Virus record (IMG/VR): IMGVR_UViG_3300012920_000087
Span: 1-42,366 of that record
Strand: one strand, 5' to 3'
Length of the DNA: 42,366 nt
Source of the DNA: a virus
Below the pieces are notes generated by a model that was not told the origin of the DNA, made no database searches, and worked only from the letters and a program-made list of their open reading frames with translations. Positions 8,711-33,641 of the stretch are shown piece after piece; positions within the stretch are counted from its first letter, which is position 1, and every line of letters starts with the position of its first letter. The position numbers and the translations under genes are program-made.

Positions 8711-9133
8711 ATGGGCGCATTTGAACAGGCTTGGCAATTTCTCAAGGCTGACGCTTCTCAAATATACAATGACGCTAGAACTCGTAGACAAACAATGCAT
8801 CCAGCGATTACTAGCATAGTAGACCGTGAAAATAAAAGGTTGTTAGCAGAATTAGAAAAAAAACCCCTCTCCCTTACCAATTTGTTCAGTCCTTCTCCTC
8901 AAGCAGAGGTTAGTTTAGTAGACCAGCCTCGAAATAGACATTTTCCAGCCGAAGTAACAATGGGAATAAGAAATTTCCCAACAGAGGGTGGACCTGATAA
9001 CGAAACTAAAAACTTTAGACCTGTAGACAGACCTAAAGATAAATTTGGTCGACCTATATTCAACGACCCAGAAACTGGAATGCCAATGGTAATGCGAGAT
9101 GGTATACCAGTTGAGTTTACAGGAGATTATTAG
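8711..9133 (+). CDS. AFEQAW-LKAD tagged protein, 140 aa
   Basis: I set the start at the ATG at 8711, giving MGAFEQAWQFLKADAS. This matches the first residues of paralogues, and it lies about 27 bases after the TATA-like CTTTTTGT at 8680-8687; an in-frame ATG at 8699 would be too close. After the tag come ARTRRQTMHPAITSIVDREN and a low-complexity, proline- and asparagine-rich body that looks disordered. The HPAI-x4-(D/N)R segment also occurs in 9747-10262. Likely a virion or packaged protein by inference from the tag; no enzyme motif seen. Confidence 0.75.
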   Translation: MGAFEQAWQFLKADASQIYNDARTRRQTMHPAITSIVDRENKRLLAELEKKPLSLTNLFSPSPQAEVSLVDQPRNRHFPAEVTMGIRNFPTEGGPDNETKNFRPVDRPKDKFGRPIFNDPETGMPMVMRDGIPVEFTGDY

Positions 9134-9138
9134 ACCGC

Positions 9139-9148
9139 TGACTTTTTA
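9139..9148 (+). promoter_or_regulatory. TATA-like box before 9173
   Basis: ACTTTTTACC, about 29 bases before the ATG at 9173; no ribosome site is present. Similar T-rich boxes precede several tagged genes. Confidence 0.4.
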
Positions 9149-9172
9149 CCATCAGCCCCTATCGGATAACGC

Positions 9173-9712
9173 ATGAGACCTTTCGAGCAGGCTTGGCGTT
9201 TGCTCAAGGCTCCTGTCTATACCGATGACAATCTGCCACCGATGGAACAGAGTCGCCACTACAAGATGCTACCTTATCTCGACCAGATGGGCGGATTCAT
9301 GTGGCAGTCAGAAGACGGGATGGCTCGTGGAACTATGAGACCTGATTATTTTCTAAACAGTTTGTTGATAAATAATTTTGAGATGGCTGGCCCTGTTAGG
9401 GGACAAAACAAGTCTCGTCAGTATATTCAAGACATGATTGACCAAGGACACGCACATTTTGACCACGAATTAGATGGCACACATGTGACCAATGTTGAGA
9501 GGCATTCGGCTGGTTATTGGAACAAATTAGTTGACGAGGGCGTGCTCGACGGTGCTCATGAACGCCCTAACATACGCACCAACTTAGATGGAGACCAGCA
9601 TTTTGTTTATGCTTACGACAAAGAAAGCAAGCAACCTTGGAGCCATGAACTAAGTGAAGACTACGCTGATTATCACGGCCTACCTACCGATGCGGTCTAC
9701 GATAATATCTAG
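9173..9712 (+). CDS. AFEQAW-tagged protein, 179 aa
   Basis: Begins MRPFEQAWRLLKAPVYTDDN. The body is rich in Asp, His and aromatic residues (DMIDQGHAHFDHELDGTHVTNVERHSAG at about 86-113). It could be a small folded domain, possibly metal-binding given the histidines. Separated from its neighbours by about 35 bases on each side, with its own TATA-like box, so it is probably transcribed as a unit. Function unknown; packaging inferred from the tag. Confidence 0.75.
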   Translation: MRPFEQAWRLLKAPVYTDDNLPPMEQSRHYKMLPYLDQMGGFMWQSEDGMARGTMRPDYFLNSLLINNFEMAGPVRGQNKSRQYIQDMIDQGHAHFDHELDGTHVTNVERHSAGYWNKLVDEGVLDGAHERPNIRTNLDGDQHFVYAYDKESKQPWSHELSEDYADYHGLPTDAVYDNI

Positions 9713-9717
9713 TAACG

Positions 9718-9727
9718 CTTTTATCTT
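9718..9727 (+). promoter_or_regulatory. TATA-like box before 9747
   Basis: CTTTTATCTT centred about 24 bases before the ATG at 9747. The same box recurs before 12893. Confidence 0.5.
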
Positions 9728-9746
9728 TAACAGCCATAGGGCTCAC

Positions 9747-10262
9747 ATGGTCGGGGCTTTTGAGCAAGCATGGAGTCTTTTGAAAGCGTTACCTCAGCAA
9801 CAGATGTATGAACAAATGTCAAGACCTATGCCTTATGGGTATAACCCTGACATACAACAACAAAGACTTGGTACTGTTCACCCTGCGATTATAAACATGA
9901 TAAATAGAGTGCAGAACCCACATGAGTATAAATTCATAGATGACGAACATGACCGCAGGCTAATAAGAAATGATTTGTTTTCTAATGTTCCAATGAGACC
10001 TAACTTAAGAGTTTTAGGAAGAGCAGAAGAAGGTCAATTTGCCGATGACCCTGCTATGATTGAAGGTAGAACACCCTTATCTATAGAGAATTATGGCAAA
10101 TACTTCGATGAGGATAGAGCCGCTGGTGGACAAGGTCCGTCTTTTATGATGGGCGATAGTGGGGATTTACACACAGAGCACTTCAACATACCATTAGCAA
10201 CTGGCGGCACCATTACTAACAATGCTCCTCTTAGACCAAGAGATATTTCTTACGAGGTGTGA
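9747..10262 (+). CDS. AFEQAW-tagged protein, 171 aa
   Basis: The frame is open from 9654, but the ATG at 9747 gives MVGAFEQAWSLLKALPQQQ, the family tag, and lies at leaderless distance from a TATA-like box. After the tag there is a Gln/Pro-rich linker, then VHPAIINMINRVQN, matching HPAITSIVDR in the gene at 8711. The rest is rich in Asp and Arg and looks partly disordered. The two genes are probably paralogues. Function unknown. Confidence 0.75.
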   Translation: MVGAFEQAWSLLKALPQQQMYEQMSRPMPYGYNPDIQQQRLGTVHPAIINMINRVQNPHEYKFIDDEHDRRLIRNDLFSNVPMRPNLRVLGRAEEGQFADDPAMIEGRTPLSIENYGKYFDEDRAAGGQGPSFMMGDSGDLHTEHFNIPLATGGTITNNAPLRPRDISYEV

Positions 10263-10268
10263 ACAACA

Positions 10269-11027
10269 GTGACAGCATTTGACCACGCTTGGACACTACT
10301 TAAGCAGCGTGGATTTGAAGTAGACCCACGCTATGAAGACCAAAGGTTAGAGAACTTACAGACAACAAGAGACGATATTGATACACTCAGAGACCATAGA
10401 GCAAAAGTATTGGCAGAAATAAATCGCTTAAGTCAATTAAGAACACCGGAAAGCGATGCCAAAATTCAACAATTGATAGAAGGAGGGCACACTAGTCCAT
10501 TAGCGTATGAAATGTTCCCCGCCCAGTCTATTCCAACAGGGGGCTATGTCGGTGGTGGTTTAAGAGATGTATCCGATGAAATGCATTTTTTAACCGACTT
10601 TGATGCTGATATACAGGGTCCACCTTTTTTTAACACGGCGTTCCTAGAGCCATTTACAGGTGCTATGTTCCAAGAACAACAAAGGCAAGAAGCAATGGAA
10701 AGGGAGGCTATGGGTCGCCCAAGTACCGTGTATGATATAGAACATGGCTTTGACCGCTCTGATTTTTCAGATGAATATTTCCCGTTTGAGCCTACTGAAA
10801 AACCACCTGCTGACATAGGGCGGGCTGGTAGCATTTCTAACATAATTAACCCCCGTAATGACAAGGACCCAACAATTCCTAGACCCGACTTTAGTTTTAA
10901 TCCATTCGACCCTAATGAAGTCGCTTTAAGACGACAGACTATGGCCAACGAGCAAACGCCGCTAGGACAAGCGCTGGCAAGAGTTAGGGCTGGTAGTGGA
11001 CCTCGACCACTACAGTTCGACCAATAA
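10269..11027 (+). CDS. AFDHAW-tagged protein, 252 aa
   Basis: GTG start, MTAFDHAWTLLKQRGFEVD. Residues about 22-75 form a charged, likely coiled helix (RLENLQTTRDDIDTLRDHRA and onward). The remainder is low-complexity, rich in Pro, Phe and Asp, and probably disordered. It follows the upstream stop by only six bases without a clear TATA box, so it may be co-transcribed with 9747-10262. Packaging is inferred from the tag. Confidence 0.75.
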   Translation: MTAFDHAWTLLKQRGFEVDPRYEDQRLENLQTTRDDIDTLRDHRAKVLAEINRLSQLRTPESDAKIQQLIEGGHTSPLAYEMFPAQSIPTGGYVGGGLRDVSDEMHFLTDFDADIQGPPFFNTAFLEPFTGAMFQEQQRQEAMEREAMGRPSTVYDIEHGFDRSDFSDEYFPFEPTEKPPADIGRAGSISNIINPRNDKDPTIPRPDFSFNPFDPNEVALRRQTMANEQTPLGQALARVRAGSGPRPLQFDQ

Positions 11028-11029
11028 AT

Positions 11030-11040: not shown

Positions 11041-11058
11041 ACCGCTTTAGACTGACAC

Positions 11059-11286
11059 ATGAGACCTTTCGAGCAGGCTTGGAAAATTTTAAAAAATTTA
11101 GACTATAGGGGAAACCCTCTACTTTGTCCTAAATGCCAAGGCACTGGTATTGACAACGAAACTAAATACGGTGAAACACCTTGTCGGTTATGTAACGGTA
11201 GCGGTATGCGAATGAGCGTTAATCCTATGGCTATGCAGCAGTATCAAAGTCAATTACCAGAAGAACCTTACGAATACGAATCGTAA
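11059..11286 (+). CDS. Tagged DnaJ-type zinc-finger protein, 75 aa
   Basis: Starts MRPFEQAWKILKNLDYRGN, followed by CPKCQGTGIDNETKYG and then CRLCNGSGMRM. Two CxxCxGxG repeats are the hallmark of the DnaJ central zinc-finger domain, which binds unfolded protein. Only about half a DnaJ zinc domain (one zinc) is present, and there is no J domain. The combination of packaging-type tag and DnaJ-like finger is unusual. The short C-terminal tail is acidic. Confidence 0.8.
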   Translation: MRPFEQAWKILKNLDYRGNPLLCPKCQGTGIDNETKYGETPCRLCNGSGMRMSVNPMAMQQYQSQLPEEPYEYES

Positions 11287-11300
11287 CAGGAGCGATAAAC

Positions 11301-11849
11301 ATGGGCGCATTCGACAAGGCATGGGCTTTACTCAAAGGTCAATATATGCACCCTAGTGTAATGGGTCACTTTGCTCGTGGCTCAATGGTTCGAGAAGCAG
11401 ACGGCCCACAGGCTACTGAATATGCTTTTGATGACTTTGGTGACCCTGCCAAAACACCGAAAATGTTTTCAGGGACAGAAGCAGACCTTAAATATAGGCA
11501 ACAAGAAAAGATTGCTAATAGCCTTGGATTTGAAACTGCTCAAGAAATGAGAGAGGCAAGTTTTAGACCTAGAGTGAGAGAAAGGGCCTCGGCTATACCT
11601 CAAGAACAAGTTGAGGATTTCATTCAAAACAGATTGGTAAATCCTCCAGTAATACCGGCTGAGTTCCATCCAAATGCATATCCCGGTGAAAGGGCTTTGT
11701 ATTTCTCTATGCTTGACGGGCCTGACGAAATCAATCTCAGGAGATTAGTTGCTGCAAGACAAAGAGGACATTATGATGGTGGGCCTGAGTTTGGTTTGAG
11801 CGAACCTACAGGTAGACGAGATTTGTTCCAACCTAACCGACAACTTTAA
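11301..11849 (+). CDS. AFDKAW-tagged protein, 182 aa
   Basis: MGAFDKAWALLKGQYMHPSV opens the protein. The body is soluble, with a helical charged segment near residues 58-100 (DLKYRQQEKIANSLGFETAQ). A good ribosome site AGGAGCGATAAAC precedes the ATG, and it follows the DnaJ-finger gene by 14 bases, so the two are probably an operon. No recognised domain. Confidence 0.75.
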   Translation: MGAFDKAWALLKGQYMHPSVMGHFARGSMVREADGPQATEYAFDDFGDPAKTPKMFSGTEADLKYRQQEKIANSLGFETAQEMREASFRPRVRERASAIPQEQVEDFIQNRLVNPPVIPAEFHPNAYPGERALYFSMLDGPDEINLRRLVAARQRGHYDGGPEFGLSEPTGRRDLFQPNRQL

Positions 11850-11874: not shown

Positions 11875-12051
11875 ATGAGTGGCGTTGAATTACTTGGATA
11901 CTTTTTGGTAGCCCTTTTGGTGGGCTATGTTTGGGCTTGGTACATGATTATTAATGAAGAAACTACTGACTTCAAAGTCTTTAGTAGTGAAGAAGAGATA
12001 GAGGAATTCCACAAGTCCTGCTTTCACGGTATGAGGAAGGGGATTGAATGA
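11875..12051 (+). CDS. Single-span membrane protein, 58 aa
   Basis: Starts MSGVELLGYFLVALLVGYVW; residues about 5-26 form one transmembrane helix, followed by an acidic cytosolic tail (EEEIEEFHKSCFHGM). Probably leaderless from the TATA-like box at 11846-11855. Its stop overlaps the ATG of the lyase-like gene, so the two are coupled. It may tether or partner that enzyme; this is inferred only from the overlap. Confidence 0.65.
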   Translation: MSGVELLGYFLVALLVGYVWAWYMIINEETTDFKVFSSEEEIEEFHKSCFHGMRKGIE

Positions 12052-12875
12052 AGGTAACCGTCTATGAGGTCGGCCCTCGTGACGGTTTACAATATCTTGA
12101 GCATATCATCGACACAGACGACAAAAAGAATCTCATTAACGCACTCTATAGGGCAGGGATAGAAAATATCGAAGAGGTAAGTTTTGCTCATCCTAAGCGT
12201 TTGCCTCAGATGGCTGATGCAGAAAAGGTGTTTACTGGCTTTGGTGCTGGGTTGGTAATGAATAAGCGGGGCTATGACCGGGCTGTTAAGGCAGGTGTGA
12301 AAAAAATTAACATTGTATTTAGTTCATGTGAGACATTTAATGTTAACAACATGGGTAAAACACGCCAAGAAATCGTGCTAATGTATAAAACATTCATGGA
12401 TAAAGTGCCAAAAGAAAATGTCAGAGTATACATCAGCATGGCTTTCGGTAGCCCTTACAGTGGTATTGTTAAGCCACAGACTATGCTTTCTTGTTTGAGA
12501 GATGCTAAGATGTTTGGCAACACTGTTGTATTCGCTGATACAGTTGGCGTAGCAAGTGAACAAGAAGTTGCTCTGTGGGCTGAGATGGCACTTGATGAAG
12601 GCTTGACACCTGCGTTACACTTACATCATAAAGGTAACGAATCGAGAGCAGTCTCGTTAGTAAGAAGTGGCTTACTTAGCGGTATCAAAGAGTTTGACAG
12701 CAGCATCAACGGTTTGGGTGGTTGTCCGTTTGCTGATGGTAGCGGGGCTAATCTGAGCACTCAAACTTTGGTACGCCATCTAAACGCATGGGATTTTGAT
12801 TGCGGTATACAAGAAGAAGACCTCGCTGATGCTGCTCGAATCGCTCGTTCTTTAACCAATGTTCTTTTATCTTAG
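12048..12875 (+). CDS. HMG-CoA lyase-like DRE-TIM metallolyase, 275 aa
   Basis: HMG-CoA lyase splits 3-hydroxy-3-methylglutaryl-CoA into acetoacetate and acetyl-CoA. The barrel begins VYEVGPRDGLQ (R11, D12 at the catalytic and metal site). HPKRLPQMADA at 48-58 corresponds to the lyase VPQMAD step. The metal pair is H191-L-H193, and GLGGCPFADGSGAN at 222-235 carries the catalytic-type Cys226 and ligand Asn235. These last features favour HMG-CoA lyase over homocitrate or isopropylmalate synthases, and the short length fits. One oddity is HLHHKGN where lyases usually have HxHDTxG. No AFEQAW tag. Substrate is unproven, and hydroxy-acyl-CoA relatives remain possible. Confidence 0.8.
   Translation: MKVTVYEVGPRDGLQYLEHIIDTDDKKNLINALYRAGIENIEEVSFAHPKRLPQMADAEKVFTGFGAGLVMNKRGYDRAVKAGVKKINIVFSSCETFNVNNMGKTRQEIVLMYKTFMDKVPKENVRVYISMAFGSPYSGIVKPQTMLSCLRDAKMFGNTVVFADTVGVASEQEVALWAEMALDEGLTPALHLHHKGNESRAVSLVRSGLLSGIKEFDSSINGLGGCPFADGSGANLSTQTLVRHLNAWDFDCGIQEEDLADAARIARSLTNVLLS
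12864..12873 (+). promoter_or_regulatory. TATA-like box before 12893
   Basis: CTTTTATCTT, same as the box before 9747, centred about 25 bases before the ATG. It overlaps the end of the lyase-like gene. Confidence 0.45.
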
Positions 12876-12892: not shown

Positions 12893-14116
12893 ATGATGAG
12901 AGCCTTTGAGCAGGCATGGAGTGTTTTGAAAGCAGACCCTTTGGCACAAGGTGGAATGGGCACTTTACCACCTGCTGTTAGAAGCATGATAGAAAGACAA
13001 AGGGCAGGTAATGTTGGAGACTTCTCTCAAATTGCAGCGGCAAATCGTGCCCGTCAATTAGAAAATATTAGAACAATGACAAACCCTAATTTAACTATGT
13101 TTCCAAATGCAGAGGTAGCAAGGGCAAACGCTTTAGAAATGATGGGTCAGACAGCGAGAAACATAAAGATGGGCAGAGGTGAAGATACACAAGAATTGCC
13201 TCCTTTTATTGATTTTTCTGGTGCAACAAGACAGGGTTACCCCACAGTCATGCAAGATATTAGTCCAATAACTGGTGGAACTACTATGGCGACAATGGGT
13301 GGCAGGGGACAAGAAGCGACTGTTCCGGTAACTATGAGAAACAAGATTACTGGAGAAACTACTATTGTTAACACTATGCCGGGACAATCTATGGCAAATT
13401 TACCAGACCACATGGAAATTGTAAGCACCGGTCAACCTCAAATGCCTCCAGTTGCATCTATACCAATTACAGAAACTATGCCGGAAGAAGCCTTCATGGC
13501 TCAACCAGAAAGTAGAATGGCTCGTAGAGGGGTAGGTGCTGCAAGGCGTAGAATGGAAAGCGGTGCTAGAGGCCCAACAGGTCAGGGTATGACTCCTTAT
13601 CGAACTAAAGAAGGCATGCTTGCATCAAATGTCGGTGTAGCAAGTCCAACTAGGTTGAGAAGAGATACCAGACCTGTAGAAACTCAACAAGAAAGAACAG
13701 GCAAGCCTACCGTTGCTCAAAATACAGCAGATATACTCGCACAGTTTGCTCAACAGCAGAGCACCGAGTTTGACAGGCCAGCAGAAGTAGACTTGAAGCC
13801 TGAACCAAAGTCCGGCGGAATCAACGAACAAATAGATACAGCAGGTCGTGGAGGAAGAAGAGCACTCAGAACACGACAATCAATTGCGGGTCAAGATGAC
13901 AGACCTAATTTCCCGATTCGAGGTTTTGAAAGAGGTAGCCAGCCACCTGTTCCTATGAGAGGTCTCCCCCCTGTTGACCCACAGCGTTTGCAGCAAAGTA
14001 TCGACATGGGTAGAGCAGACCCGGATTTGATGAATGAAGAGAGGTTACTTGAACTTGCGAGACAACTTGGTAAACAAAACGGCGCTCAACAAACTGCTGT
14101 TGACCGAACTGCTTGA
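12893..14116 (+). CDS. AFEQAW-LKAD tagged large disordered protein, 407 aa
   Basis: Starts MMRAFEQAWSVLKADPLAQG, the closest match to the tag on 8711-9133 and the same K-A-D step as the major capsid protein. The following PPAVRSMIERQRA recalls the HPAI-x4-(D/N)R segment of its paralogues. Most of the rest (Met-, Gln-, Arg- and Pro-rich) looks disordered and basic, with many RxxR patches. This composition would suit a DNA-interacting internal virion protein, but that is inference. Confidence 0.75.
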   Translation: MMRAFEQAWSVLKADPLAQGGMGTLPPAVRSMIERQRAGNVGDFSQIAAANRARQLENIRTMTNPNLTMFPNAEVARANALEMMGQTARNIKMGRGEDTQELPPFIDFSGATRQGYPTVMQDISPITGGTTMATMGGRGQEATVPVTMRNKITGETTIVNTMPGQSMANLPDHMEIVSTGQPQMPPVASIPITETMPEEAFMAQPESRMARRGVGAARRRMESGARGPTGQGMTPYRTKEGMLASNVGVASPTRLRRDTRPVETQQERTGKPTVAQNTADILAQFAQQQSTEFDRPAEVDLKPEPKSGGINEQIDTAGRGGRRALRTRQSIAGQDDRPNFPIRGFERGSQPPVPMRGLPPVDPQRLQQSIDMGRADPDLMNEERLLELARQLGKQNGAQQTAVDRTA

Positions 14117-14613: not shown

Positions 14614-14955
14614 ATGGGCGGAGACTTTGAGTTTCAGTTTTGTGACTGTTGTAGTCCTGCTGAACTCGCTTTTGAAGTACTAAAAGCAAGGTCAAAGCCG
14701 TTTCACGGTTACAATCCTAACAAACATAGTCGCAAAGGTGGTTTAAACGCCAAAGGTCGTGCTGCGGCTAAGCGTAAAACAGGTGCAAACCTTAAGCCAC
14801 CTGTTACTACCAAGCCTTCTAAACTCAAACCCGGCGGTAAAAAAGCGAAGCGTCGTAAGTCTTTCTGTGCTCGCATGAGTGGGGTCAAAGGTCCAACTAG
14901 TAAAAAAGGTAAACTGACACCAAAAGGTGCAGCGTTGAAAAGGTGGAATTGCTAA
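14614..14955 (+). CDS. DUF6321-like basic protein with internal tag, 113 aa
   Basis: The central and C-terminal part (RKGGLNAKGRAAAKRKTGAN, later RRKSFCARMSGVKGP, ending KRWNC) matches the DUF6321 family, which I recognise from many phage and mobile-element proteins of unknown function. It is strongly basic and likely binds nucleic acid. In front of it is a Cys-containing leader and then PAELAFEVLKARSKPF, a variant of the AFEQAW-LKA tag at about residues 16-31. Start at the first ATG. The gene ends with a TAATG overlap to the next. Confidence 0.8.
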   Translation: MGGDFEFQFCDCCSPAELAFEVLKARSKPFHGYNPNKHSRKGGLNAKGRAAAKRKTGANLKPPVTTKPSKLKPGGKKAKRRKSFCARMSGVKGPTSKKGKLTPKGAALKRWNC

Positions 14956-15362
14956 TGACAGCGTGGTGGGAAATTTTAAAACAAGATACTGAGCAAGTTA
15001 TTTTGCGTGAAATAGAAAAGGAAGGCGGCGCTCTAGGTATGAAGAATCTTAGAGAAGTGGTGCCTGACGAAGATGAATTAAAGTCTACACTTACTAACAT
15101 GATTAAACAAGGTAAGTTATTTGTTCACGAAGACGGTGATATCTATACTCACGAGCCTAAAGACCAAATGGAAAAAGGTTGCGACTGTGGACACTGTGTC
15201 GGTATAGACAATGCATTTGACTTTTTAGAAAAGAAATTGTGTCCTGCTGGTAAAGCAGCAGCCAAGCGCAAATTCAAAGTTTACCCCTCTGCTTATGCGA
15301 ACGGCTGGGCGGTGCAATATTGTCGTGGTAAGTTTCGTAAGAAAAAGGGGAAGAAGAAATGA
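14955..15362 (+). CDS. Winged-helix-like protein with DUF5872-type C-terminus, 135 aa
   Basis: The start at 14955 gives MTAWWEILKQDTEQ, a shortened version of the tag (AW then ILKQ). Residues about 12-60 (EIEKEGGALGMKNLREVVPD, then TLTNMIKQGKLFVHEDGDIY) read as a winged helix. The C-terminus LCPAGKAAAKRKFKVYPSAY followed by ANGWAVQYCRGKFRKKKGKK is the basic phage module commonly labelled DUF5872. Probably nucleic-acid-binding. TAATG overlap with the previous gene and ATGA overlap with the next. Confidence 0.75.
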   Translation: MTAWWEILKQDTEQVILREIEKEGGALGMKNLREVVPDEDELKSTLTNMIKQGKLFVHEDGDIYTHEPKDQMEKGCDCGHCVGIDNAFDFLEKKLCPAGKAAAKRKFKVYPSAYANGWAVQYCRGKFRKKKGKKK

Positions 15363-15760
15363 TACCTCTTAGTCAGGCTTGGCTAGTCGTCAAACAAAGG
15401 CAGACCTGTCCAATGGCGACTAGAGATTTAAAACTCAATACTAAAAATAGGAATATCGCAATAAAATCAAACCACATTAATTATGGCCCGCTTAATTTAT
15501 CTGATGAAAAGTATTGGGAAGACGCAGCAGACCATTGGAAGACTACGCCAGAAGTTGCTAAAAAATCTAATTGTAGTAACTGCATTGCTTTTGATATTAG
15601 TCCGAGAATGAAAAAATGCATGCCGTTAGAAGGAGATTTAGGTTATTGCTGGATGCATGATTTCAAGTGTCACAAAGATAGAACTTGTTATACTTGGGCA
15701 GCGGGTGGACCGATAACCGAAGATAAAATTTCTATGCAAAATCAAGAAAAACGAGGTTGA
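15359..15760 (+). CDS. Cys-rich phage-type protein with tag, 133 aa
   Basis: Starts MIPLSQAWLVVKQRQTC, a diverged tag. The rest contains YWEDAADHWKTTPEVAKKSN, then CSNCIAFD, a later cysteine, GYCWMHDFKC and RTCYTWAAGGP. This arrangement (CxxCxAFD, GYC, FxC, RTCxxWxxGGP) occurs in a widespread phage protein of unknown role; the spaced cysteines could hold an iron-sulfur cluster or zinc. ATGA overlap with the previous gene. Confidence 0.75.
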   Translation: MIPLSQAWLVVKQRQTCPMATRDLKLNTKNRNIAIKSNHINYGPLNLSDEKYWEDAADHWKTTPEVAKKSNCSNCIAFDISPRMKKCMPLEGDLGYCWMHDFKCHKDRTCYTWAAGGPITEDKISMQNQEKRG

Positions 15761-17598
15761 TATATTTGCCAGAATGCACTTGTCACGATGTTCTTATTGT
15801 CAAGAACCTTAACAGGTGGTTCAAAGAAAAGTGGGTTGATGTATCTCGCAAAGACCCGAAAACTGGTAAGCATCCACCATGCGGTAGGTCAAAAGCCAAG
15901 AAGGGTCGCAAAGGCTACCCGAAATGCCGACCAAGTGTAAGAGTATCGAGTAAGACTCCAAAGACTAGCGGCGAGATGACTAGTGGACAGAAGCGAGCAG
16001 CGACTAAGCGCAAGCGAGCCAAGAGACAAGGGGTGGGTGGTAAGCCAACTATTGTTAAAGGTCGGGACATGTCTCATTGTAATTGTAATGCGCCCAAGGG
16101 CTTCTCTTGTAAAGCGCATTGTAAAAGCAAACAGATGAAAAAAAGCGTGTTGGTAAAAGCCCCACGCATTCCTCGTAAGAAAGGTCAACCCGCAGGTTCA
16201 AAGAAACATTCCGATTTGTATACTGATGAGAATCCGAAAGGTACTATTCATGGACTTGGTTTCAAAGACCCGGCTAAAGCAAGACAGTCAGTTAGTAAAA
16301 TCAAAAACAGCAGTCGCAGTCATGCTCACAAAACACAGGCAGCCATCGCCATGGAACAAAGAGCAAGAGAGATGGGTAAAACCAAAGAAGCCGGTGTCTA
16401 TAGAAATTTTATCGAACAACAGAAAAAGAAAACTAAGCAGATGAAAAAATCATTGATATTAGTAAAGCAAGATGGGTTTCCCGAAAACATGCCCGATGCT
16501 GCACCGGAGTTAATTAGCGTAGGTAGTATGCTAGGCGTAGACGCTCCAGAAACTTGCACGATACCCGGTTGTAACAATCCTCCTATGATGAAAGCAAGGT
16601 ATGCCAACCCGCTAAGAAGTGTAGATTATACTCATCATATGTGCACTGAACACGCTATGCAGTATGAGCCAGACCTCGCTCAAGTGCTTGTGCAAAAAAT
16701 GAACTCGATAATAAAAGCAGTTAGGCGAGGTGACTACGCTCGTCACTTACCTACCGAAATGGATTATGACTTGTTACAAACTCATCTAAGAAATAATCCC
16801 AACGCTACAATTAGAGATTTATTAGTTCCTTATTTGACAGGTAAGTTTGTTAAACCGGATTCTCAAGTTATGGCTCGCCCACCTTCTTATCAGGGTGGAG
16901 AGTTACCGTTCCCTTTATCTCAGCAAAAAGCCAAAGATTTTGTTTCAAGAATTCCAGAGACTATGATGATGTCCGGTGGTAGGCGAACCCCTCAGTTAGA
17001 AAATGATTTCAATGTTTTGAATAATTCTGTAAGAGTATTACAAGGTAGAATTAGGCAACAACCCGACATGTTTGAAATGCAACCTCCAAAAACTCAACGA
17101 GCATTTACTACAACAAATAGGTATGGTTCTGGGTTCGGAGATGTAAGAGGTAATCCAGATTTACCTACGGGCAAGTTTGGCAGAATGAAGCAAAGAATGA
17201 CAGATTATCTGAATACTCCAGTTGGACTTATGGAAGATTCACCTATGTTAGAAGAACAGGAAGAAGAAATGATACAAGCAGGTGAGCCAATAGACCTTTC
17301 TTGGCGACTTCTCAAGAACCCAGTAAGTCCAGAGGCTAAGCGTCACAAGTTAGAGTATGACAAAAAGTATGAATCGACACCTGAGCGGGTAAAATATCGT
17401 GAAGAGTTAAATCGTGAGCGACGAAGAAGAGGCATTTACGGCAAGGGTGGCCCTGACATGAGCCATACTAAGCAACACACGCTAGTTGCAGAGGACCCGC
17501 ACACCAATCGAGCCCGTCATTTCAAGGAAAGAGGTACACTTAAAAGCACAAAGCCTATTGACCGGGAGTTGATTCTCGTTACCACAGGTAGATTGTAA
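15757..17598 (+). CDS. Composite (polyprotein-like) virion protein, 613 aa
   Basis: TTG start overlapping the upstream stop. It strings together modules that I know as separate small phage proteins. First, WFKEKWVDVSRKDPKTGKH to about residue 70 is a DUF5872-like basic domain. Second, KKHSDLYTDENPKGTIHGLG to about 225 is the family ending in SHAHKTQAAIAMEQRA. Third is a Cys/His segment near 266-300 (CTIPGCNN ... HMCTEH). Fourth, PERVKYREELNRERRRRGIY, near the C-terminus, with DMSHT. Between the modules lie MKKSVLVKAP (about 127-136), MKKSLILVKQ (about 228-237) and DLSWRLLKNP (about 514-523), each resembling the packaging tag. Proteolytic maturation into several proteins is inferred. Confidence 0.8.
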   Translation: MIYLPECTCHDVLIVKNLNRWFKEKWVDVSRKDPKTGKHPPCGRSKAKKGRKGYPKCRPSVRVSSKTPKTSGEMTSGQKRAATKRKRAKRQGVGGKPTIVKGRDMSHCNCNAPKGFSCKAHCKSKQMKKSVLVKAPRIPRKKGQPAGSKKHSDLYTDENPKGTIHGLGFKDPAKARQSVSKIKNSSRSHAHKTQAAIAMEQRAREMGKTKEAGVYRNFIEQQKKKTKQMKKSLILVKQDGFPENMPDAAPELISVGSMLGVDAPETCTIPGCNNPPMMKARYANPLRSVDYTHHMCTEHAMQYEPDLAQVLVQKMNSIIKAVRRGDYARHLPTEMDYDLLQTHLRNNPNATIRDLLVPYLTGKFVKPDSQVMARPPSYQGGELPFPLSQQKAKDFVSRIPETMMMSGGRRTPQLENDFNVLNNSVRVLQGRIRQQPDMFEMQPPKTQRAFTTTNRYGSGFGDVRGNPDLPTGKFGRMKQRMTDYLNTPVGLMEDSPMLEEQEEEMIQAGEPIDLSWRLLKNPVSPEAKRHKLEYDKKYESTPERVKYREELNRERRRRGIYGKGGPDMSHTKQHTLVAEDPHTNRARHFKERGTLKSTKPIDRELILVTTGRL

Positions 17599-26892: not shown

Positions 26893-27929
26893 TGGGAAGA
26901 GTATTAGTTAAGTCTGCTCTTCCTAACAAAGTCTTAGTCAAGAGCAACTATGCTTTCGATGCTTTTGGTAATCCAGTGCTATTGTCAACTCCCTCTACAA
27001 GAGAAGGTGCACCTGTAAGAGGAGAAAGATTGGCTGGTATTTTAGGCGGAGCAGCAGGTGCTGGTTTGGCTCTTACGCAACCAGTAAATTCTTTGTCTCA
27101 GTTAATCAACAACCTAAGATATGGTATGTTTGAAGGTGCTAGAGACGCTCGTGGTTTAAGAAGAGGGTTGTCAAGTCGTCGAGAAAGGATAAGGGCTAAT
27201 AGAGCAGCAGACCTTGCCAATCAATATGCCGCTTTGAGAGCACAAGAACCTCTTGACCAAAGAAGGCAAAGAGGTTTATTTGACAGATTGACTGGTGGTA
27301 ATTTTATGACTGCTGGTCAACAAGAACAAGCATTGTATGAGGCGGATGTGCAAAGAAGACTTGCCGACGAAAGGGCTGCTAGAAACGCTGCTTTGGGTCG
27401 ACAAGTGTTCGATATGGCTGGCAGAATGCGTGGAGAAAGACCAGAAGATTTGACTTTAGAAGCAGGTGAAGAAGCCCTCCGTAACATCAACCAGTTGGTA
27501 GTAGCAGGTGCACAACGAGGGAATAGAATAGATGTTCCAGAATCAGTGCCGCTACCTAATTTCGCAAATCAAAATCCCGAACTGATAGCGGATATAGAAC
27601 GAGAGTTACAAACAAGAAATGTTATGCCTCAAGAAGGGGATGTAAATGTGACGAAGCCCGGTGGAGTAAGAGTTGTGAATGCATTAAATCAAGTAGAAGA
27701 TTTGCACCCTGCACAAATAACACCTGTTCTAAGCAGTATACCAATCCCTCCACAAGGTGCCTCAGAAGCCGCAAAAGAAGAAGAAAAAGGCACACCTAAT
27801 CCTAACGCAATGGTTCCTATTATTAAGCCAGAAAAAGAAGAGTCTGCTGAGCAAGAAGAAGGACCTAGTATGTTACGAACTGGCATTGAAAACAAATTGA
27901 GAAATTTTGAACCGGAGGTTGAGGCTTGA
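26892..27929 (+). CDS. Tagged Arg-rich protein with duplicated LVKS, 345 aa
   Basis: Starts MGRVLVKSALPNKVLVKSNY; two VLVKS steps lie within the first 18 residues. Then follow YAFDAFGNPV and a Gly/Ala-rich hydrophobic patch (about 52-66). A very Arg-rich helical stretch (about 85-200) precedes an acidic, Pro/Glu-rich tail. The ATG shares an A with the previous stop. Composition fits a DNA-associated internal protein, by inference. Confidence 0.65.
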   Translation: MGRVLVKSALPNKVLVKSNYAFDAFGNPVLLSTPSTREGAPVRGERLAGILGGAAGAGLALTQPVNSLSQLINNLRYGMFEGARDARGLRRGLSSRRERIRANRAADLANQYAALRAQEPLDQRRQRGLFDRLTGGNFMTAGQQEQALYEADVQRRLADERAARNAALGRQVFDMAGRMRGERPEDLTLEAGEEALRNINQLVVAGAQRGNRIDVPESVPLPNFANQNPELIADIERELQTRNVMPQEGDVNVTKPGGVRVVNALNQVEDLHPAQITPVLSSIPIPPQGASEAAKEEEKGTPNPNAMVPIIKPEKEESAEQEEGPSMLRTGIENKLRNFEPEVEA

Positions 27930-29407
27930 GTGATGTCAACAACCTCATCCGAGACATGGACATAGAGATGTCCAAAAAGTCATTTAAGTATTTCTTTACT
28001 GAGATTTTAGAGTTTGATTTTTCAGACCACCATCGAGATTGGTTAGCAGGTCTAAGTGAAAGTAGAAGATACTGCGTCAAAGCAAGTCGTGACCACGGTA
28101 AGTCAGTATTTTTTATGTCTTATGCACTTTGGTTGGCCGCTTTTAAACCGAATACTCACATTATGGTATTCAGTCACAGCCTTGAGCAGACACTTGAACA
28201 CATGCGATTCATCCGTAACAACATCGAAAGTGCTGATATTCTGAAAGAATTAAAGCCAACAGGTAAGCCTTGGGCTAAATCTTACTTTGAATTCACTAAC
28301 GGTAGCCGTATCATGGCTAAATCGGTTGGTGGTGCTACTCGTGGTTTCCACCCTGATGTCGTAGTATGTGACGATATTTTGTGGGGTACCACTAGTTCTG
28401 AATTACAAAGAGCAGCAGACTGGTTCTACACTGTTCTACTACCTGTATTGCACCACACAGGTAGGCTGATGATGGTCGGTACACCGTTTAGTTACAACGA
28501 TTTATACGCTGAATTAGAAGACAAACCTGCATTTAGGGTCGAGACATACCCTGCTATATTACCCAACGGTGAACCTCTTTGGCCCGGTAGATGGCCACTG
28601 GATGCACTAAAGGTACGAGAAGAGTCAATGCCAGCCATCAAGTTCGCTCGTGAGTATCTTTGTGAGCCTATTCACGACATGTCGAGTATGTTCCCAATGA
28701 CTTTGTTAGAAAAAGCAAGGGACAAAGACCTGATTTTGATTGACAAAGCAGAACAAGAGTTTGATGAAAACGGCGACCCATCGGGAGTATTTGGCCAGCA
28801 CTTCATTGGCTGGGACCCGGCTATTGCGTCAGATGCTAATGCTGACTATACTGCTATGTCTGTTCTGAGAATGCTACCGGATAGTGACGAAAAGCAACTA
28901 ATTCATATCGTGAATGAGAAAGGCTTGGGTAGTAACGCACAGAAAAGAAAAATAATCATGCTCAACAGTCGATTTAGACCAGACCTCATCGAACTTGAAG
29001 GTAACAACTTCCAAAGAATGTTTGAGGCGGAACTCAAAGAGATGCGTGACGACATTCCTATCAAGACATTTATGACCACTCGGCAAAAGAAAGAAAGTAT
29101 GTTTATGTCTTTACTCATGGCTTTTGAACAGGGTAAGATAAAAACACCTTGGGGCGACGAAAGAAGTAAAGAATTTACTCGTAATCTTGAAACCCAACTC
29201 AGTAGATTCGGTATGCAGAAGAACGGTAGACTAGAGTCTGTGGGTACTCATGATGACTTAGCCATGAGTTTGGCTTTGGCTAACTGGGCTACTAAAGAAT
29301 TCAAGGGCACTATGGTTATGCTTGATGATTACCTTGACGGATTTAACGATTGGTTTGGTGATGTTTCGCAAAGAAATGTAGCGGGTGCGTCTTGGTTCAC
29401 GATATAA
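27926..29407 (+). CDS. terL: Terminase large subunit (packaging ATPase-nuclease)
   Basis: The DNA-packaging motor subunit that pumps and cuts viral DNA at the portal. The ATPase domain shows Walker A ASRDHGKS at 53-60, Walker B VVVCDD at 145-150 and the coupling motif LMMVGTPFSY at 181-190. The nuclease domain shows the RNase H-like acidic residues in GWDPA (D297), ELEGNN (E358) and THDDLAMSLALA (D443/D444). At 493 aa, the length is normal. Starts with GTG or TTG-type overlap to the previous gene. No intein or intron seen. Confidence 0.95.
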   Translation: MSDVNNLIRDMDIEMSKKSFKYFFTEILEFDFSDHHRDWLAGLSESRRYCVKASRDHGKSVFFMSYALWLAAFKPNTHIMVFSHSLEQTLEHMRFIRNNIESADILKELKPTGKPWAKSYFEFTNGSRIMAKSVGGATRGFHPDVVVCDDILWGTTSSELQRAADWFYTVLLPVLHHTGRLMMVGTPFSYNDLYAELEDKPAFRVETYPAILPNGEPLWPGRWPLDALKVREESMPAIKFAREYLCEPIHDMSSMFPMTLLEKARDKDLILIDKAEQEFDENGDPSGVFGQHFIGWDPAIASDANADYTAMSVLRMLPDSDEKQLIHIVNEKGLGSNAQKRKIIMLNSRFRPDLIELEGNNFQRMFEAELKEMRDDIPIKTFMTTRQKKESMFMSLLMAFEQGKIKTPWGDERSKEFTRNLETQLSRFGMQKNGRLESVGTHDDLAMSLALANWATKEFKGTMVMLDDYLDGFNDWFGDVSQRNVAGASWFTI

Positions 29408-29436: not shown

Positions 29437-30744
29437 ATGTGGCCGAGTCTAAATGTAACAAATAGTGATTATGTTGTAGACATGGGTCACGCTATTCTTA
29501 ACGATATAGCAATCAACCTCATGGCACATCCGAGAGTAGACGAAACAGTGGCTAAGTCAATTGCTTCTCAGACTGTAATGTTTGAAGAAGATAAATTGCC
29601 TGAGCCACAGTATGCACCTTTTGCACCTACTGGAGAGGGTTGGTTTGAGGACAGAATAGGCAAAAGTGCTAATGAAATCATCAAAGATTTGCGAAAGGCT
29701 AGGCGAGTTATGAAAGATAATAAATTAGAAATCGACAACATCATATCCAGCGTCAGGGCTCTCAAAAGCGCAGAAGTAGACGCTACTCTTGCTATGTTGT
29801 CTTGGGGCAAACCTCATTATGATACGATGAGAAAAATGGGATTGTCTGACAGAGACCTGCGCTCGCTTAGACTGTTCGGCAAATCACGCAAATCTAGTTT
29901 ACTTCGTGCTTGTAACTTATGGGAAAGTGCAGAAGATGCATTAAACAAACTCGACGAGTTTGAAGATGTTTGGGGCGAAGAAGAAAAAATGGCTTGGGTT
30001 AACGCTATGGAAACTAAACAAGACGCCCGTAAGATGTGGAAGAGTTCACTACATCAAATCGACAACCTTTCCAAAGAACAGCAGAAATGGATGAGGCTCG
30101 CTAAAGAAGAAGTAAGTAATCACGGCTCAATGTCTGCTAGAGCGATTACTGAAAACCTCATAGAAAAGGGCGTACCAAGACTGAATTCTAACAGACTGTC
30201 TAAACTTCTTAATATGTATGGCGAAGAAATAAACATAGTCAAGGCTCACCGTAAGGGCGAATATATGTGTATAGACCGAGACGGATTAGTTATCAAGGAC
30301 CCTTGGTCTTATGCGGCTGGCTTCTTTGACTCTAATGGTTATATCAACATCTCAGACCGTGGGGAGCCTAAAGTTGGTTTAGTGACCAAGGGTAAATCTG
30401 GTAGAATGCATTGCGAACAATTGTATAAGGGGATAGGTATAGGAACTTTACAACTAGACCAAAAAATATACGACGACCCTGCACAAAGCCAGCATCGGGT
30501 GACATTTTTTAAATCAGAAGATATATTACAATTCTTACAAAATATTTTTTCTGAGTTGAGAATCAAGAAAGATTTAGCAAAAGCGATGATGTTTTATGTT
30601 GATTCTGACGACGAAGTCAAAAAGAGTAAAGTCAAGAAGTTTCTACAGTATACTAATGCGGAAGGTACTGCCAAGGGCGACAAGTTACTAATGAAGTGGG
30701 ATTTAGACCGTGATACAGTATTTAATTGGCTGGAGGAATTTTAA
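29437..30744 (+). CDS. Protein with C-terminal LAGLIDADG-like domain, 435 aa
   Basis: Start at the ATG at 29437 because GGAG lies six bases upstream; an in-frame TTG at 29425 is less likely. The N-terminal 260 residues are helical and charged, without a recognised fold, and contain a possible regulatory helix-turn-helix near 236-270. From about 288, WSYAAGFFDSNGYINI resembles the first LAGLIDADG helix of homing endonucleases (D298 kept). The following VGLVTKGKSGRM and SEDILQFLQNIFSEL fit that fold. Located between terminase and portal. It may be a domesticated DNA-binding protein rather than an active nuclease. Confidence 0.65.
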   Translation: MWPSLNVTNSDYVVDMGHAILNDIAINLMAHPRVDETVAKSIASQTVMFEEDKLPEPQYAPFAPTGEGWFEDRIGKSANEIIKDLRKARRVMKDNKLEIDNIISSVRALKSAEVDATLAMLSWGKPHYDTMRKMGLSDRDLRSLRLFGKSRKSSLLRACNLWESAEDALNKLDEFEDVWGEEEKMAWVNAMETKQDARKMWKSSLHQIDNLSKEQQKWMRLAKEEVSNHGSMSARAITENLIEKGVPRLNSNRLSKLLNMYGEEINIVKAHRKGEYMCIDRDGLVIKDPWSYAAGFFDSNGYINISDRGEPKVGLVTKGKSGRMHCEQLYKGIGIGTLQLDQKIYDDPAQSQHRVTFFKSEDILQFLQNIFSELRIKKDLAKAMMFYVDSDDEVKKSKVKKFLQYTNAEGTAKGDKLLMKWDLDRDTVFNWLEEF

Positions 30745-32489
30745 TGGCAGAAAAGGGCAGAATAGGTAAACTCATAGAATCAATCGGCAACCCGTTCCGA
30801 AGAAGAAGGACACCAGAGCCACAGATGCCGCTTTGGACTACAGGTATACAAGAGCCTGTACTAGTACAAGGTATCACCATACCTGCATTGTACGCAGTTG
30901 CTAATGAAAATCTTATTCTTAGAACGGTTCTTTCTACACTTCAACAAGAAATATTCCGTCGTGGTTACTACTGGGAAAAGAAATTTCAAAAGAAATGCAC
31001 TTCTTGTGATGCTGAGTTCCAGCACGATGTCGACGAATGCAGAGAATGCGGCGATACAAACTTAGCAGAGCCTAACCCTGACCAATTAGTATATCCTCGT
31101 TGGTTAATCGAGCAAAGAAACTCTATGGAACAGACCTTTATGGATGTACTTAGGGAAGTAGAATACGATTTGAACATTACAGATGATGCTTTCTTAATTC
31201 TTATCAAAGAATATTACATGGACCCAGAAACAAATGAGTTAGCGTTTTACAGAATCAAAGAAATTGTTAGAGGAGACCCTATTTTTATGCGTATCATTGC
31301 CGATAAGCGTGGTGTTAGAGGAGGACGCTTCCGAGTTTGCCCTATACATCGTAGTGAAGTTAAAGCCTACTCTGGTGACGACAAACACTGTCCTATTTGT
31401 GGAACAGAAATGCTAGATGTGCACCATGTCAACACTGCTGGAAGTGGTAAGACACAGCATTATCTTGAAGGGGAGGTAATTCATGTTAGTAAATATCAAC
31501 CTTCTAAACTATACGGCAGGAGTCCTGTTTCCACTCTTTGGCGACAAGCCATGACTCTGACAGCAATGGACAATTATATGTATACTGCTTATTCAAAGCG
31601 AAGAATACCAAGAGGTATATTGAGCGTTACTACTGATAATCTTGAGTCCATGAAGTCGTTTTTCAAGGCTACCGACGAAAAGTTAGAGCGTGACCCGCAC
31701 TACATACCTAAGATTGGTATTGAATCTGGTAGCGGCAGAGGCGGCATTAACTGGGTTAAACTAATGGACAGTCTTGAGGAGATGCAATACATACCTGCAA
31801 GAGACGAAATGCGACAAAGAATTGCTGCTTTCTACGGCGTATCTAATGTATTTATGATGGACACTGGTAAGTCCGGTGGCCTGAACAACGAGGGTATGCA
31901 AATACTTGTGACTAATAGAGCAGTAGAGTTTGGTCACAAAGTATACACTGACCATCTGTTCCCACGACTAATGGAACAAATGGATGTCACCGATTGGAAA
32001 CTAACATTGTATCCAAACGAAGAAGAAGACGAAGTTACCAGACTACGCCGTGATGAGATGGAAGTGAATATTGCTCAAAGGATGATGATGATGGGTTACA
32101 AACCAACACTATCCGAAGACGCTAATCGTGATATTCGATTTATTTACAAACAACCTGACCCGACTGACCCTGCTCAGCAACCTCAGCAACCTACCCCTAT
32201 GGGCGGTATGCAAATGGGTGGCGGTATGGGTACGCCGGGCGCACTTCCAAGCCGTAATATTAGTCCACAAGGCGCCGCTCAGATGGCAAGACAGGCCCAA
32301 ATGGGTATGTCCCAGCCCGGCGGCGAAGGCGTGGGTCTAAGAAATAGAGGTCCGGCCAGTCCACAAAATAGAACCAGCATGGGCTCTGGTTCTCCAATGT
32401 CAAGTGTTCAACAGAGAGGCCCTCAACCGGGAGCAGTTCAGCAAGCCAGTCAAAATATATTAGATGCTAGAAATCCAAGAGGGGCTTAG
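30744..32489 (+). CDS. Portal protein with two zinc insertions, 581 aa
   Basis: The portal forms the dodecameric vertex channel through which DNA passes. The start at 30744 has GGAGGAATTTTA in front and overlaps the previous stop. The core shows the portal pattern YLEGEVIHVSKYQPSKLYGR, then SPVSTLWRQAMTLTAMDNYM and RIPRGILSV. Unusually there are two zinc-ribbon-like insertions, C85/C88/C99/C102 and C199/H202/C216/C219. The C-terminus is long, Met/Gly/Pro-rich and disordered. Its position after the terminase supports the assignment. Confidence 0.85.
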   Translation: MAEKGRIGKLIESIGNPFRRRRTPEPQMPLWTTGIQEPVLVQGITIPALYAVANENLILRTVLSTLQQEIFRRGYYWEKKFQKKCTSCDAEFQHDVDECRECGDTNLAEPNPDQLVYPRWLIEQRNSMEQTFMDVLREVEYDLNITDDAFLILIKEYYMDPETNELAFYRIKEIVRGDPIFMRIIADKRGVRGGRFRVCPIHRSEVKAYSGDDKHCPICGTEMLDVHHVNTAGSGKTQHYLEGEVIHVSKYQPSKLYGRSPVSTLWRQAMTLTAMDNYMYTAYSKRRIPRGILSVTTDNLESMKSFFKATDEKLERDPHYIPKIGIESGSGRGGINWVKLMDSLEEMQYIPARDEMRQRIAAFYGVSNVFMMDTGKSGGLNNEGMQILVTNRAVEFGHKVYTDHLFPRLMEQMDVTDWKLTLYPNEEEDEVTRLRRDEMEVNIAQRMMMMGYKPTLSEDANRDIRFIYKQPDPTDPAQQPQQPTPMGGMQMGGGMGTPGALPSRNISPQGAAQMARQAQMGMSQPGGEGVGLRNRGPASPQNRTSMGSGSPMSSVQQRGPQPGAVQQASQNILDARNPRGA

Positions 32490-32518
32490 GAAGTTTAAAG
32501 TCAAGGAAGGTATTGGGG

Positions 32519-32866
32519 ATGAGCATGGACCTAAAGAAATTGGACCCGATGGCTAGAAAAATGAGAAGTCATGTTGATGCATTTTACAAAGCGTTAGAAC
32601 AACAAGACGGTGTCTCGGCAAGAAGTCACATAACCGAAGTTATCAAGTACGCAGATTATCTAAACAAAGACATAGAGACTACGATTTCAAAATCTGACTC
32701 TGTAAAATCTGTTGGTATAAACGATATCTATGTTGGCGGAGTACCTGTTCTTAAATCAGGTTCTGCTCAAAATGTCCACACAGCACAAAGCGATGTGTTG
32801 CCGGGCATGATTAGAACTACTAGAGCGGGTCCAACTCACCGAAGATTGTCTAACCGCACAGTTTGA
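32519..32866 (+). CDS. Small head-region protein, 115 aa
   Basis: ATG at 32519 chosen for the GGAAGG nine bases upstream; a TTG at 32513 is an alternative. Residues about 5-65 are helical (KLDPMARKMRSHVDAFYKAL then THVIKYADYLNKDIETT-like), followed by TISKSDSVKSVGINDIYVGG and PVLKSGSAQN. LKSG and SKSD again resemble the cleavage step. C-terminus basic. Probably a minor head or scaffold component. Confidence 0.6.
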   Translation: MSMDLKKLDPMARKMRSHVDAFYKALEQQDGVSARSHITEVIKYADYLNKDIETTISKSDSVKSVGINDIYVGGVPVLKSGSAQNVHTAQSDVLPGMIRTTRAGPTHRRLSNRTV

Positions 32867-32875
32867 GGTGATTAA

Positions 32876-33244
32876 ATGAGCGAAGAGAGGGAAAATGTCG
32901 CCGAAAAGTTGATGGGTGCACTCATCACTAAAATGGAAAACATGGATGCAGGTCTTCAATTGTTGAAAGCAGAAAACGCTGAACTCAAAAAAGCCCTGCT
33001 CAATCCAGCAGTGTTGCTTAGAAAGGCTGGTTTTGTATCTGCTAAGAATAATATGCCAGAAGATGTGATGCCTGATTTGTTTAGGGGCGATGCTGATGAT
33101 GTATTGTTGAAGGAAGACGGTAATCCAATAGAAATACCAAAGACCAATCAAGACTTTTACAAGACAGATTGGAGTGAAATTCACGCACTGGCTGACCAAG
33201 CAAAGAACAGCGGTGCAATAGGAAACGAAATAGGAATGGAATAA
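32876..33244 (+). CDS. Coiled-coil head-region protein with DWSEIHALA tail, 122 aa
   Basis: MSEERENVAEKLMGALITKM then a coiled coil (about 14-45), NPAVLLRKAGFVSAKNN, and a C-terminus TDWSEIHALADQAKN. The last motif recurs almost exactly at the end of the protease-scaffold protein (MDWSEVHSLAGS). That suggests both ends bind the same partner, perhaps the capsid protein. GGTGATTAA precedes the ATG. Confidence 0.65.
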   Translation: MSEERENVAEKLMGALITKMENMDAGLQLLKAENAELKKALLNPAVLLRKAGFVSAKNNMPEDVMPDLFRGDADDVLLKEDGNPIEIPKTNQDFYKTDWSEIHALADQAKNSGAIGNEIGME

Positions 33245-33245
33245 T

Positions 33246-33641
33246 ATGAAGCCAAGATTTGAACAAGCAAGTAAAGAAGTGTATGACCTGCTAAAAGCAG
33301 CGCAGAACTTAGAAAGTCGTATCGCTAAGAAAGAAGGTAGTATGCCAAATTATACAAGTCAACCCGAAGGGGCTACCGTAGGTTACGCTCGATTTGAAGC
33401 ACAGCCTTCTGGAGTGCCTAACGCATATTATAATACAAACAATGTTTTGCTTGCCGATGTAGAAGATGTAACTAACAAAGGTGCTATTTCAGAGAACAGC
33501 GATGTACTGACAAGAGAGTCACCTTATTATCCTACAGCGTTTAGCACAACAGGTGCACTTGAGAACTTCAAAGGTGGTGACGGTCCAACCTTGTCAGAAC
33601 TAAAGAAGTCTATTGACCGATTAGCCAGCCGTCTAAATTAA
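33246..33641 (+). CDS. Small head-region protein with FEQA...LLKA, 131 aa
   Basis: Starts MKPRFEQASKEVYDLLKAAQ, a spaced-out version of the tag. Then comes a Ser/Pro/Asn-rich segment and a C-terminal coiled helix (LSELKKSIDRLASRLN). It follows the previous gene by one base. Probably a minor capsid or scaffold protein; function inferred only from position and tag. Confidence 0.6.
   Translation: MKPRFEQASKEVYDLLKAAQNLESRIAKKEGSMPNYTSQPEGATVGYARFEAQPSGVPNAYYNTNNVLLADVEDVTNKGAISENSDVLTRESPYYPTAFSTTGALENFKGGDGPTLSELKKSIDRLASRLN

Follow-up and report, generated by a model that had tools for sequence, protein, structure and literature searches.

Why should a dozen residues recur at the start of many unrelated proteins of a single virus? 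The question is raised by the 42,366-base IMG/VR virus record IMGVR_UViG_3300012920_000087 (hereafter the window, meaning the whole stretch of DNA analysed), which carries minus-strand genes at about 0.2-7.2 kb and plus-strand, late genes from 8.3 kb to its end. A preliminary description of this DNA had noticed a recurrent AFEQAW-type tag on late proteins and proposed that, as for the capsid targeting sequence (CTS) of phage T4, it directs them into the head and is then removed by the prohead protease. That a portable tag exists on late proteins is, from the sequences, virtually certain; it is real, confined to late genes, repeated at the junctions between protein modules and restricted to one clade. 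As to its role, we favour, with a probability of about two in three, a leader or docking peptide that would target cargo proteins to the head in the manner of the T4 CTS, followed by cleavage after a conserved Lys and delivery to the host.

The strict motif M-x-[PA]-F-[ED]-x-A-W-x-x-L-K opens seven late genes of the window, just as the preliminary description had stated, and has no match in 500 composition-preserving shuffles of the window proteins. Only one start had to be moved: the gene given as 9747 does carry the tag, which begins with the ATG at 9744, 9747 being the next codon, GTC. The seven copies are:

8711-8749, plus strand: N-terminal tag MGAFEQAWQFLKA, opening the 8711-9133 product.
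9173-9211, plus strand: N-terminal tag MRPFEQAWRLLKA, opening the 9173-9712 product.
9744-9785, plus strand: N-terminal tag MVGAFEQAWSLLKA, from the ATG at 9744; the listed open reading frame begins upstream, at 9654.
10269-10307, plus strand: N-terminal tag (V/M)TAFDHAWTLLKQ, with a GTG start.
11059-11097, plus strand: N-terminal tag MRPFEQAWKILKN, on a small DnaJ-type zinc-finger protein of 75 aa.
11301-11339, plus strand: N-terminal tag MGAFDKAWALLKG.
12893-12934, plus strand: N-terminal tag MMRAFEQAWSVLKA, on a 407-aa product whose ortholog family, found in five genomes, is tagged in every member.

A looser pattern, AWxx[LIV]{1,2}[KQ], is found 12 times in the window against 0.25 expected (shuffle maximum 3). 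All of the window tags lie on the late strand, with none in the 22 minus-strand genes. The shorter or displaced versions reported for the genes at 14614 (AFEVLKA, residues 19-24), 14943/14955 (AWWEILKQ), 15359 (AWLVVKQ) and 17749/17776 (AWSLLQ) were all found again. Two copies do occur in the 23663 product (previously 23672), both of them internal and none N-terminal, whereas the copy at 33246 is present in a degenerate form. Right in outline, the earlier reading overlooked internal copies, polyproteins and relatives. The additional copies are:

14650-14688, plus strand: displaced tag CSPAELAFEVLKA, preceding a basic body of a DUF6321-type family kept in nine genomes.
14943-14984, plus strand: N-terminal tag variant (V/M)ELLMTAWWEILKQ, on a body that ends in a basic DUF5872-type module.
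15359-15397, plus strand: N-terminal tag variant MIPLSQAWLVVKQ.
17278-17316, plus strand: internal tag AGEPIDLSWRLLK, overlooked before, at residue 520 of the 613-aa 15757 product and immediately upstream of a phrog_6437 module.
17788-17823, plus strand: tag SYAIDSAWSLLQ, close to the start of the 17749 product; A[WF]xxL[KQE] is kept in ten genomes.
24047-24088, plus strand: first internal tag TGEPMENAWSTLIK of the 23663 product, at residue 136.
24278-24319, plus strand: second internal tag TGEPMDNAWSSLIK of the 23663 product, at residue 213.
33255-33299, plus strand: degenerate tag RFEQASKEVYDLLKA of the gene at 33246, with its LLKA part conserved in 11 genomes.

Among the window copies, the conserved A, L and K residues are written with varying codons, and the DNA upstream of the tagged genes has nothing in common, so that selection acts on the peptide and conservation lies at the protein level. 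Concerning the bodies behind the tag, a DUF6321 protein (and a DUF5872 one) is indeed among them, while the DnaJ finger at 11059 scores 28.6 bits in Pfam, below the curated cut-off of 32.7. Likewise, the term virion-block suits the location of these genes, although not one of the tagged proteins is proven to be part of the virion.

The window fits a part of a magrovirus-like archaeal tailed virus when judged against the description of the International Committee on Taxonomy of Viruses (PMC10768690), because it shows two opposed gene blocks and an HMGL-like gene at 12048, and its marine relatives, which reach 109 kb, number in the hundreds. Magrovirales are characterized by two oppositely transcribed blocks (replication and virion), a B-family polymerase, a chaperonin and an HMG-CoA lyase; the lyase is listed for Aoguangviridae and the chaperonin for the magrovirus family, and no magrovirus is in culture so far (PMC10768690). 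We found no link to a host, and a genome contig search gave no match.

Seventeen magrovirus-like genomes, namely the window and 16 further ones of 59-109 kb, were compared. All 17 carry the tag and all 17 encode an S78 prohead protease, a gene present in every related genome examined; the preliminary description had tied its proposal to the tag accompanying this protease, and the association held. The plain pattern gives 3-12 tags per further genome, against about 0.6 in shuffles of the first 13 genomes. The profile search that had been suggested, done with a position weight matrix, yielded 176 copies on the terminase strand of the 17 genomes, four on the opposite strand and 0-1 in shuffles at the same threshold. 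Because late-strand AW copies served to train the matrix, the untrained plain pattern is the fairer gauge of strand bias; in 14 genomes it gives 118 late-strand and four early-strand copies. Moreover, in 160 shorter loci with the large terminase (TerL) or the major capsid protein (MCP), all 112 tag copies lie on the structural strand. The tag is retained across genomes whose proteases are only about 60% identical. It is absent from five records of 38-57 kb whose MCP is at most about 57% identical to that of the window, and from the 91 kb examined of the haloarchaeal virus HVTV-1, and is thus confined to the magrovirus-like clade sampled; vir519 has a single, internal match that looks like chance.

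In its commoner spacing (103 copies), the tag reads [P62 A28]-[F43 M21 L15 I13]-[D51 E36]-x-A-W-x-[L49 I22 V21]-L93-K93-[A33 Q14 E13 G10], i.e. a stretch of about 12 residues with the consensus [PA]-[FMIL]-[DE]-x-A-W-x-[LIV]-L-K. Most of the information precedes the Lys, and background is reached past position +7. A second form, [GS]-E-P-M-[DE]-x-A-W-S-[STE]-L-[LMI]-K, occurs one to three times within every sampled ortholog of the 23663 product (AF replaces AW in two of them); such orthologs, each with 1-3 tag copies, exist in 17/17 genomes. A third, internal form is [GS]-E-P-M-D-[IL]-A-[MFTW]-[RQ]-L-L-K. The tag is mildly amphipathic: its hydrophobic moment is 0.49-0.70, where random 10-mers average 0.29, and about half of the copies fall below the 95th percentile of 0.57. 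As for placement, 96 of 129 AW-type copies are N-terminal, 28 internal and 5 C-terminal, with at least two copies in the latter classes looking like chance matches. Some C-terminal copies end just 2-4 residues before the C-terminus. Two proteins, G006_95668 (L212:15671-17008) and G011_35989 (L185:15992-16813), are tagged at the N- as well as the C-terminus, where the tag finishes 2-3 residues past its Lys.

Several tagged genes encode polyproteins of 470-911 aa with 3-5 tags, one per module junction:

G008_4998, 829 aa: tags at residues 46, 240, 440, 579 and 768.
G023_66935, 911 aa: tags at residues 9, 335, 608 and 826.
G017_43, 671 aa: three tags; the protein begins at a contig edge.
G027_398, 620 aa: three tags.
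G005_100304, 470 aa: three tags.

Some module families occur in both settings, alone behind an N-terminal tag in one virus and inside a polyprotein, preceded by a tag, in another. The HExxHxLIxPE family is N-tagged in G002 and G004, the first of two modules in G010 and the third module in G023; an ADP-ribosyltransferase (ART)-like family starting QTxLGExHxDxPSxYGPV is N-tagged in G001 (twice) and G023, and internal in G023; a GNAT-like family is N-tagged in G008, G013 and G023, and internal in G017; and a further portable family is common to G010_4248 and G008_4998. In these portable modules, homology starts at the tag Lys or a few residues later. The search of internal against N-terminal bodies was swamped by portal proteins, through a chance AF..LIK match, and only its non-portal rows were used.

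Judged by clustering, the bodies behind the tag are mostly unrelated and change fast, with 211 tag-stripped segments falling into 110 clusters, 77 of them singletons. One tagged module is an HD phosphohydrolase (phrog_990, 1.4e-35; PF13328 at 8.5e-5 is below the curated cut-off), and in G010_3097_4251 (L179:3097-4248) an N-tagged HExxH-like module is fused to an HD phosphohydrolase through a second tag. A Pfam search with the ART-, GNAT-, HExxH- and kinase-like modules gave nothing significant (KptA/Tpt1 profile on ART-like modules, E 0.12 and 0.33; GNAT profile on another module, E 0.015), and PDB sequence searches were of no help for either the ART-like or the kinase-like proteins; the names ART-, GNAT-, zinc-protease- and kinase-like are therefore motif-level leads. 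The kinase-like family (about 270 aa; motifs GxG, VK, DxKxxNW and DPxF) is encoded well away from the main tag block; even so, 7/7 members seen are tagged:

Kinase-like family: L231, L232, L233, L238 and L239, with the G006 and G011 orthologs.

Its AlphaFold2 model, with a pLDDT of 39, was not used. Effector-like enzymes as cargo would thus comprise one significant match, the HD phosphohydrolase, and a number of leads.

The tagged genes of the window stand beside its head genes, the first of which defines the late strand in the strand test:

27926-29407, plus strand: large terminase.
30726-32489, plus strand: portal protein.
39572-40978, plus strand: S78 prohead protease (PF04586, 4.6e-10), with a helical, scaffold-like C-terminal half.
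41016-42149, plus strand: major capsid protein of the SU10/HVTV-1 type.

One tag on unrelated late bodies beside head genes, an S78 protease in the genome, and a length and design like those of the T4 CTS speak for the earlier proposal of capsid targeting, and we hold that tagged proteins are likely directed to the head. The idea of an N-terminal prosequence fares less well, as about a quarter of the AW-type copies are internal or C-terminal, the internal ones at polyprotein junctions. By analogy with T4, the amphipathic tag would bind a component of the assembling prohead, for which the scaffold-like half of the S78 protease, the inner surface of the MCP and the 23663 product are candidates; the prohead would trap the tagged proteins; the S78 protease would then cut after the Lys of Phi-Phi-K (Phi, a hydrophobic residue) ahead of A, Q, E or S, so that mature cargo is set free and polyproteins with several tags come apart into their modules; and finally the cargo would be ejected along with the DNA to act on the host. 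The third of these steps is weakly supported. A broader proposal, whose odds we put slightly below even, is a modular loading system in which a single tag, on single proteins or as a polyprotein spacer, would load strain-specific enzymes that the S78 protease frees at the Lys for the host; candidate cargoes would be the HD phosphohydrolase and possibly zinc proteases, acetyltransferases, ADP-ribosyltransferases and kinase-like proteins.

Whether the S78 protease cuts after the tag Lys is, to our judgement, evenly balanced. After this Lys, A, Q, E or G is preferred. In the protease itself, Lys27 (ISIVK/A, the slash marking the putative cut) and Lys180 (FRILK/E) flank the protease domain, are invariant in 31 aligned sequences and 96-99% conserved over 76, and are candidate cleavage sites. 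Conserved Phi-Phi-K sites appear in ten late and no early ortholog alignments, a few of the ten falling in folded enzymes such as the portal; in the 15757 product, shorter sites of this kind also occur at residues 16, 101, 134 and 237. Untagged late proteins are enriched in Phi-L-K-[ASQE] by 2.2-fold (z 6.8, orthologs removed), the strongest outlier among Phi-L-X-[ASQE]. The figure was 2.7-fold with orthologs kept, and this drop, together with a raised value in early proteins, leads us to treat the signal as weak. A cut of the MCP at LLK34/AD was considered and judged unlikely: its LLK, at residues 32-34, is invariant in 69 sequences, but in alignment the window MCP begins where the N-terminal extension of HVTV-1 ends, so there is no delta domain.

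Several of our results weigh against a targeting leader that is later cleaved. The short-site signal is non-specific, since early proteins are also enriched in Phi-L-K-[ASQE] (1.7-fold, z 3.9); the MCP lacks a delta domain that could be cleaved; cleavage of C-terminal tags would bring little gain; and some orthologs of the 17749 product have Gln or Glu in place of the tag Lys. Most N-tagged proteins are acidic (median isoelectric point 5.7; 24/90 above 8.5), and T4 internal proteins are basic. No binding partner is supported by the structure predictions, which were poor (pLDDT 39 and 49); the AlphaFold2 model of the protease, with a pLDDT of 49 and nothing in Foldseek at E<=0.001, was used for its helical C-terminal half alone. 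Because leader removal cannot explain the C-terminal copies, the evidence favours targeting or docking over cleavage, and these copies together with the Gln/Glu variants point to docking, not cutting, as the primary function, which also fits the N-terminal, internal and C-terminal placement.

The same observations feed the alternative that survives best, an unremoved docking motif for virion assembly or for a late partner (scaffold, portal, tail or the virus chaperonin), where the Lys merely ends a helix. Besides the internal and C-terminal copies, the Gln/Glu variants and the concentration of information before the Lys, it is favoured by chaperonin-like genes in 11/14 clustered genomes (identified by eye; listed for the family in PMC10768690). 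However, it leaves aside the residue preference directly after the Lys, the tags at module junctions, sensible places for a cut, and the conserved Phi-Phi-K at the edges of the protease domain, and we deem it unlikely. Improbable, in turn, is a protease recognition site alone, serving to split or trim late proteins with no targeting role. It would agree with the junction placement and the Phi-Phi-K preferences, but some ten conserved residues, with F/M, D/E, A and W at a distance from the cut, exceed the AXE motif of SPN3US gp245 (PMC10052503), copies exist 2-4 residues from the C-terminus, and removing a 12-residue leader from small proteins would be pointless unless it were functional. Poorer still are the prospects of a signal read inside the host cell, already infected or only just entered, that would send proteins to host membrane or machinery or have them degraded or modified: the amphipathic character and the effector-like bodies would suit it, but not the near-strict tie to late-strand genes close to head genes, nor the presence of the tag in the 23663 ortholog family held by 17/17 genomes. 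Inheritance through recent gene duplications or a shared DNA element at translation starts is highly improbable, for although the N-terminus is the commonest site and some tagged neighbours are paralogous (G001_52421/52984, G006_99514/100163), codons and upstream DNA differ, neither significant homology in most bodies nor nucleotide-level tag conservation was seen, copies also sit internally and C-terminally, and the tag outlasts protease divergence to about 60% identity.

Other features of these genomes deserve mention. The protease ends in W-[SD]-[ED]-[VI]-H-x-[LM]-A (window 40934-40975; W, V and H invariant in 76 sequences), a motif that recurs as DWSEIHALA near the C-terminus of the 32876 product (32876-33244) and in its counterparts, and could be a shared scaffold tail contacting the capsid protein. 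The HMGL-like enzyme gene (12048-12875; PF00682, 4.5e-21) is untagged within the tag block. A small GTPase-like protein (19985-20704; PF00025 Arf, E 0.006, below cut-off; GPTMVGKTTL), kept in 14/14 clustered genomes, adjoins tagged genes. Several consecutive small ORFs (open reading frames) of the early minus strand (202-1718) start with MIDT(D/G)K(Y/R), three of them with MIDT(D/G)KYE(G/E)HT; this N-terminus differs from the tag, is limited to early genes and is followed in some by a MADAPLLLxEVKRLR-like segment. Lastly, a protein of about 5,500 residues occurs in most of eight of the 14 clustered genomes (e.g., G006_40370_56839 and G003_53585_70648).

Magroviruses are a very abundant group of marine archaeal viruses. 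If the favoured reading is true, the packaged proteins of these uncultured viruses could be listed from sequence alone, the tag by itself would read out the injected proteome, and candidate proteins for taking over Poseidoniales hosts early in infection, or for countering their defences, could be picked out for testing. Repeating a targeting tag along a cargo polyprotein would, to judge from the comparisons made here, be new among tailed viruses, and attempts to load archaeal capsids could make use of this tag.

A literature search, not exhaustive, turned up no head-cargo targeting signal for an archaeal virus. HVTV-1/HCTV-1 (Druskaviridae) have a related MCP (32-34% identity) with an adjoining protease but, unlike the window, HVTV-1 is tag-free in the 91 kb examined and its MCP has an N-terminal extension of about 70 residues. 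Encapsulin cargo-loading peptides are short and portable and load unrelated enzymes into an HK97-fold shell, whose inner face they bind; the likeness to the magrovirus tag is one of general description, and encapsulins have no protease step and are found in cellular compartments. The giant Salmonella phage SPN3US resembles our case in its many packaged proteins, its short-motif prohead protease (gp245, AXE) and the self-cleavage of this protease, whereas the propeptides of its ejection and head proteins are mostly long (two of 20-24 residues, the rest of 111-254), and the parts of the source consulted mention no 12-residue leader common to them (PMC10052503). In the Dar system of P1, internal proteins also enter the head and the prohead protease Pro removes the DarA N-terminus, but Hdf is unprocessed and the portions consulted describe no common short tag (PMC12810830). 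As regards T4, incorporation of IPIII needs no more than its first 10 residues, of which 4 and 7 bear on targeting and 8 and 10 on processing; the prohead protease cuts the leader, and gp21 also processes the C-terminus of Alt (PMC9026906). The T4 CTS (IPI-III and Alt; gp21) and the magrovirus tag are both short leaders common to unrelated, fast-evolving proteins in genomes with a prohead protease, and the tag falls within the length of about 10-19 residues taken for the class. They differ in sequence, in the residue at the presumed cut (Lys here, Glu in T4) and in the protease, here of the S78 family; T4 internal proteins are small and basic and the N-tagged magrovirus cargo mostly acidic, a trait not strictly defining. 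Also unlike T4, the magrovirus tag has many internal and C-terminal copies and multi-tag polyproteins, belongs to an archaeal virus and is known from sequence alone. T4 cargo, finally, includes an enzyme, the ADP-ribosyltransferase Alt, and that of magroviruses may as well.

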